NCBI GenBank assembly: GCA_031267895.1
Contig: JAIRYF010000023.1
Coordinates: 1-52,677, forward strand
Length of the DNA: 52,677 bases
Source of the DNA: Candidatus Methanoplasma glyptotermitis
GTDB taxonomy: Archaea > Thermoplasmatota > Thermoplasmata > Methanomassiliicoccales > Methanomethylophilaceae
Reading direction: 5' to 3'
Each line of letters starts with the position of its first letter. The stretch's first letter is position 1. The position numbers were made by a program, and so were the translations under genes. Of this stretch, positions 1-26,937 are shown piece by piece. The notes under the pieces were generated by a model, which did no database searches, was not told the origin of the DNA, and saw only the letters and a list, made by a program, of their open reading frames with translations.

Positions 1-180
1 GCATCCGACTCATTCGGTTCGGAATACGTTACAAAGAATGCTGCTGCGAGAAACAGAGCAGCAGCAAATAATACAGTTATATTCAGACGGCTGGGGAAAT
101 TATAATTTCCCCCCCCCCCTGTATGGGCGGGCGGATGTTTTGACGGAAGGAATAATTCCTTTCGAAGATTTAAGGTTCAT
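1..180 (-). CDS. N-terminus of a predicted exported/membrane-anchored protein, frame broken by poly-G
   Basis: Partial gene running off the left edge. The minus-strand ATG at 180 follows a good Shine-Dalgarno sequence (AAGGAGTG about 7 nt upstream). A hydrophobic segment of about 19 residues (ITVLFAAALFLAAAFFVTY) lies further in, followed by an acidic stretch open to the edge, which looks like a signal anchor. Between them is a run of 11 G on the coding strand. With 11 G the frame from the ATG stops after about 26 codons; with 10 or 13 G it joins the hydrophobic segment. This is either phase variation or a sequencing error in the homopolymer. The function cannot be named because only the N-terminus is present. 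Confidence 0.5.
109..119. repeat. 11-nt poly-C/poly-G tract
   Basis: Uninterrupted run of 11 C on the plus strand, read as G in the minus-strand gene that starts at 180. Its length is out of phase with the downstream hydrophobic segment, so it controls whether the protein is made in full. Confidence 0.9.
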
Positions 181-23483: not shown

Positions 23484-23495
23484 GGGGGGGGGGGG
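23484..23495. repeat. 12-nt poly-G tract
   Basis: Uninterrupted run of 12 G in the 287-bp gap between the QueG-like gene and the PemK-like gene, 138 nt before the latter's start. No convincing gene crosses it on either strand. Confidence 0.9.
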
Positions 23496-26925: not shown

Positions 26926-26937
26926 CCCCCCCCCCCC
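26926..26937. repeat. 12-nt poly-C/poly-G tract
   Basis: Uninterrupted 12 C on the plus strand, 80-91 nt upstream of the membrane protein starting at 26846 on the minus strand, between its start and the predicted TATA region near 26990. Confidence 0.9.

Follow-up and report, generated by a model that had tools for sequence, protein, structure and literature searches.

Phase variation at simple-sequence repeats is textbook knowledge in bacteriology. Its poly-G and poly-C contingency loci in Campylobacter, Helicobacter and Neisseria have long G-runs near the 5' end of the coding sequence, occur many times per genome, and serve surface and restriction-modification functions. In the Opa genes of Neisseria, the repeat is a pentamer located in the leader-coding region. 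These genes form about 11 scattered, phase-variable loci (PMC3745409). The poly-G/poly-C contingency loci of H. pylori are covered in a survey with 18 archaeal genomes among its set, which emphasised poly-A and poly-T (PMC2831843). Surface proteins and restriction-modification genes are the predominant phase-variable functions according to a 2025 review, which, at least in its available text, leaves the archaeal distribution of simple-sequence phase variation to the future (PMC11868660). Literature searches found nothing on phase variation in Methanomassiliicoccales, leucine-rich repeats in Methanomethylophilaceae, or phase-variable poly-G in archaea; coverage of subscription journals was poor, so absence is not proven. 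As far as these searches show, reports of on/off poly-G switching in archaea are rare or absent.

The locus studied here lies at the edge of the window, by which we mean the whole analysed stretch of 52,677 nucleotides that starts at base 1 of contig C33 in the genome of Candidatus Methanoplasma glyptotermitis (72 contigs, 1.717 Mb). On the minus strand, a ribosome-binding site (AAGGAG, 190-195), also found ahead of the ATG in most related genes of this genome, precedes an ATG at 180-178. The 5' coding part (120-180), which has homologous counterparts in these genes, comprises 20 codons (MNLKSSKGIIPSVKTSARPY) and one further base, an A, and runs into a tract of 11 G at 109-119 (11 C on the plus strand). 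At 11 G, a stop codon follows in frame no more than three codons past the tract. For the ATG to be connected to the open frame NYNFPSRLNITVLFAAALFLAAAFFVTYSEPNESD (3-107, minus strand), the length must be 1 modulo 3 (10 or 13 G). This open frame holds a hydrophobic signal anchor (about 24-80) and continues for 35 codons as far as base 3 of the contig, where the gene is truncated. The original prediction was of a gene with a good ribosome-binding site and a signal-anchor segment, interrupted by 11 G and restored by 10 or 13; its coordinates, its arithmetic and each of these elements are confirmed, with the anchor placed in the frame after the tract. The window contains three G-tracts in all. 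The two others, both of 12 bases (23484-23495, plus strand; 26926-26937, minus strand), are outside ORFs of at least 110 amino acids and possibly lie in leader or promoter regions.

The window gene belongs to a large paralogous family, in which 45 of the genome's 99 G-tracts occupy one and the same place (43 members were recognised by motif, and two more are truncated at contig ends). Members are laid out as a ribosome-binding site, an ATG 46-70 bases before the tract, about 20 codons, the G-tract, AAATTATAATTT or a variant of it, and a near-identical signal anchor. A 37-residue profile of the anchor cassette matches 52 places in this genome, one of them the post-tract part of the window gene (G000:C33:3-107, E 6.2e-25). 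Elsewhere it has two weak matches in one congener, both without a tract, and none in the other 100 of the 102 genomes of the same taxonomic family that were searched. All six complete members scanned carry the BspA-type leucine-rich-repeat domain LRR_5 (PF13306) above the curated cut-off (E at most 8.8e-48). Because the window gene breaks off after 35 codons, this evidence comes from paralogues only, and a leucine-rich-repeat ectodomain is inferred for it from them. Nearly all the C-terminal ends inspected combine a linker rich in glycine, serine and asparagine with a hydrophobic segment and a basic tail. We infer that the family consists of cell-surface proteins.

Exact identity among members extends at most 90 bases upstream and 108 bases downstream of the tract. 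We considered whether two contig ends might be population variants of one locus and rejected this, because exact upstream identity stops within 90 bases, which indicates different loci. Two near-identical members, L056 and L042, differ in tract length (10 and 11 G) and share 84 identical bases upstream and 51 downstream. There are also relatives without a long tract. One has an interrupted tract and is open from its own ATG, three tract-less relatives have an ATG ahead of the anchor, and one has only six G and is out of frame. Family members L193, L195, L196 and L197 of this genome have interrupted or lost tracts and can be read from an ATG close by, as though locked on.

Frame could be judged for 42 members, excluding L049 and L072, whose start codons lie beyond the contig, and L069, in which no ATG was seen. 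The 5' parts differ in length, and 37 of the 42 need 1 modulo 3 (10 or 13 G). As assembled, only four are in frame (L035, L038, L056 and L080:4759), a result that speaks against a simple coin-toss switch. This share is below one third (P 3.5e-4) and also below the share of lengths 10 or 13 in the other tracts, 20 of 54 (P 0.002). Length 10 occurs in 2/45 family tracts vs 14/37 of the tracts that are neither in the family nor in candidate coding regions (P 1.7e-4). As members share ancestry, the data are less independent than these P values imply. Among family tracts, 22 have 11 G and 20 have 12 G. The family is thus shifted away from its in-frame lengths, and we read this bias as that of a mostly silent repertoire, with expression itself inferred. 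The other 38 judged members are out of frame; in out-of-frame members, downstream frames of 400-900 codons remain open. At four family loci, a more distant ATG exists in the frame that is now open.

The tract adjoins a potential hairpin. In the window this is a perfect 20-base inverted repeat, GGGGAAATTATAATTTCCCC (93-112, no strand assigned), which begins with the last four G of the tract. The commonest version in the family folds better than 98.6% of its synonymous recodings, and folding-energy P values for single versions range from 0.008 to 0.26 (L035 left out). Codons 1-7 after the tract have low synonymous diversity (0.00-0.12), and codons 2, 3 and 6 vary in amino acid; L035 is misaligned by one codon in the underlying table. 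These data suggest, and do not prove, that the hairpin has a role at the DNA or RNA level. We do not claim it as a proven DNA-level element, given that its versions are related to each other and that P for single versions reaches 0.26.

G-tracts are in excess throughout this genome. There are 99 runs of at least 8 G in 1.72 Mb (56 on one strand and 43 on the other), with a peak at 11-12: two of 8, three of 9, 18 of 10, 36 of 11, 35 of 12 and five of 13, so that 89 of the 99 measure 10-12 G. Runs of at least 10 G or C number 94, vs 1.9 expected genome-wide under a first-order composition model of the DNA fetched around all tracts. For runs of at least 9, there are 97 of G vs 11 of A (13 expected). 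Across 102 genomes of the same taxonomic family, this one included, this genome has 97 G-runs of at least 9, two congeners have 64 and 42, and no other has more than 26. In a sample of 245 genomes from the phylum, which includes this genome and leaves out both tract-rich congeners, the count of runs of at least 10 G is 94 for this genome and never above 16 for any other. The non-family tracts were sorted by eye into 16 coding candidates and 37 remaining tracts, a total of 53 that omits L060 (which shares the upstream module and lacks the anchor); counts of 54 include it. About 30 of the 37 remaining tracts fall outside any ORF of at least 110 amino acids, and G-runs may therefore grow in this genome without gene function. 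One tract region, L056:3709-3729 (G000:C49), consists of ten G, one T and ten C, a perfect inverted repeat of homopolymers about 10 bases past a 521-codon frame. Others (L055:2456, L061:1662, L064:2488 and L082:2575) lie towards the 3' ends of frames only 79-104 codons long, where tract length would alter only the C-terminal tail; that these frames encode regulators is a possibility judged by eye.

Several of the coding candidates affect restriction-modification genes. The halves of tract-split genes were scanned separately. A Dam-family adenine methyltransferase, L015:2375-3245 (G000:C15), is split by 11 G and needs 10 or 13; its domain matches are D12 (E 3.2e-56, from profile position 22) and TIGR00571 (E 2e-72). 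A relative in the one-contig genome G048 crosses the site as an open frame with no tract, and L015 is a candidate epigenetic switch. In the type I specificity subunit L017:1952-3192 (G000:C17), recognition domains lie on either side of a 10-G tract (E 4e-13 and 1.2e-9), and 8, 11 or 14 G are needed to join the halves. A ResIII-type protein or helicase, L029:1543-3923 (G000:C30), is split by 12 G into parts of 467 and 322 residues and needs 10 or 13; the ResIII domain sits before the tract (E 1.7e-8). Tracts also split two periplasmic-binding proteins (L023 and L053) and occur in further leucine-rich-repeat proteins (L075 and L081). A 92-residue part of L066 has no Pfam or NCBIfam match. The idea that L066 begins a type III methyltransferase was set aside, since it rests on resemblance alone and no domain match was found. 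Scanned halves without a Pfam match were those of L025 (both), L076 (both), L079, L061, L064 and L082.

The repair genes sought were not detected in this lineage. Neither MutS_V nor NucS_C was found in any of 17 genomes of the genus, in searches whose controls were positive in 11 and 7 of 14, respectively. Slippage loops may consequently go unrepaired; other repair routes are outside the analysis. Judged by ribosomal protein S7, Candidatus Methanoplasma sp. Mx356_bin39 (96%) and Candidatus Methanoplasma reticulitermitis (97% over 122 residues) are the closest relatives that have a name. One article states that Candidatus Methanoplasma occurs exclusively in arthropod guts (PMC10684969), and the habitat of this genome, by inference, is most likely an insect gut. 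In congeners, tracts lie beside signal-like segments in other genes (L205 and L207 in G034; L232 and L236 in G043; L257 in G048), and that of L257, with 11 G, is in frame. G034 lacks the anchor cassette; its loci L203, L208 and L212 share another repeated start (ATCATGACAGCATCAAGA or a similar sequence), after which come 11-14 G.

We consider it highly probable that slipped-strand phase variation at these tracts affects restriction-modification genes and a surface repertoire that is mostly silent. Phase variation of an exported protein, as originally proposed for the window tract alone, now has support from 45 paralogues with the tract at one place, from bounded and non-random lengths, from the split Dam-family methyltransferase and type I specificity subunit, and from the failure to find MutS or NucS in the genus; slippage, switching and expression are inferred, as no reads were available. 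Three features of contingency loci are present, namely a 5' homopolymer beyond chance, restoration of the frame by one or two bases (opening 35 codons here and 400-900 in complete paralogues), and a genome in which more than one surface or restriction-modification gene carries such a tract. Variation of tract length within a population is inferred, differences being seen between paralogues only, and so is any dependence of expression or phenotype on length. Replication slippage would gain or lose G's in each tract. At 10 or 13 G, translation would cross a short run of Arg-Gly-Gly-Gly after leaving the start codon and go on into the signal anchor and the leucine-rich-repeat ectodomain, and at 11 or 12 G the ribosome would halt just past the tract. 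Since most members require 10 or 13 G and the tracts are mostly of 11-12, the greater part of the repertoire would stay silent. Each cell would then display a few proteins, changing over generations, with a putative role in interaction with the host, viruses or neighbours. A broader reading, which we put forward tentatively and rate somewhat below an even chance, is genome-wide bet-hedging, in which about 45 surface proteins are silent by default at both of the commonest tract lengths, are switched together with DNA methylation and restriction genes, and owe their spread to a 5' module in which the hairpin maintains the mutability of the G-tract.

Mutational drift could in principle produce a similar picture. 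If mismatch repair were absent, G-runs might lengthen throughout the genome to about 11, and the family could consist of decaying pseudogenes copied along with their tracts; the tracts outside ORFs, the predominance of out-of-frame members and the lack of detected MutS or NucS across the genus would all be accommodated. However, decay would not leave the long downstream frames of out-of-frame members intact, and the 5' parts vary in steps that preserve the 1 modulo 3 requirement in 37 of the 42. Family tract lengths also differ from those of the remaining tracts, and A-runs are not in excess, and we therefore regard drift as an unlikely explanation. A still less probable one is regulation at the RNA level, whereby polymerase or ribosome would slip on a G-run of fixed DNA length, aided by the hairpin, and yield some full-length protein. 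It would suit the adjoining hairpin and the low synonymous diversity of the seven codons after the tract, but one programmed shift could not serve both of the other frames, which tracts of 11 and of 12 represent in nearly equal numbers, and long G-runs are unstable in DNA themselves. Poly-G read tails or homopolymer miscalls might be suspected in a fragmented assembly in which several contig ends adjoin tracts. Shared repeats account for these ends, however: the 11 G together with 108 identical bases form a 119-mer that C1 and C33 each have at an end, and k119 contig names mark the assemblies of both closest named relatives. Homologous sequence flanks the tracts on both sides, their lengths are bounded at 8-13, they fall at one place in 45 genes, and tracts also occur in related genomes, including one of a single contig. 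Any single length could be off by one, and error cannot explain 45 homologous tracts; we give an artefact hardly any credence. Slipped-strand phase variation remains our preferred reading.

If this reading is real, a gut methanogen without detected MutS or NucS would show that archaea use phase variation at a scale similar to the classic bacterial one, and it would become testable why a non-pathogenic methanogen varies its surface, with host defences, viruses and attachment to other gut microbes as possible reasons. It also bears on annotation, in that such genomes would have dozens of genes labelled as pseudogenes. With BspA-type leucine-rich-repeat proteins (PF13306), the complete members scanned share the repeat region. 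They differ in the poly-G and signal-anchor cassette, which 100 of the 101 other genomes searched in the same taxonomic family lack and which is weak and tract-less in the remaining one. As with Neisseria Opa, paralogous genes for surface proteins are scattered over the genome, and every one has a repeat in its leader-coding part; Opa differs in its pentamer repeat, where the tract here is poly-G, in its protein family and in having fewer loci. With the loci of Campylobacter, Helicobacter and Neisseria, the tracts described here share 5' G-runs, frame restoration by one or two bases, a multiplicity of loci, and surface and restriction-modification genes. They differ in the archaeal host, in a 45-member family with a common tract-hairpin-anchor cassette, in that most members are out of frame as assembled, and in that switching is inferred. 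The mechanism is thus of a known kind, and, as far as our searches show, what is new is the archaeal host, the scale of a 45-member repertoire biased to silence, and the tract-hairpin-anchor cassette.
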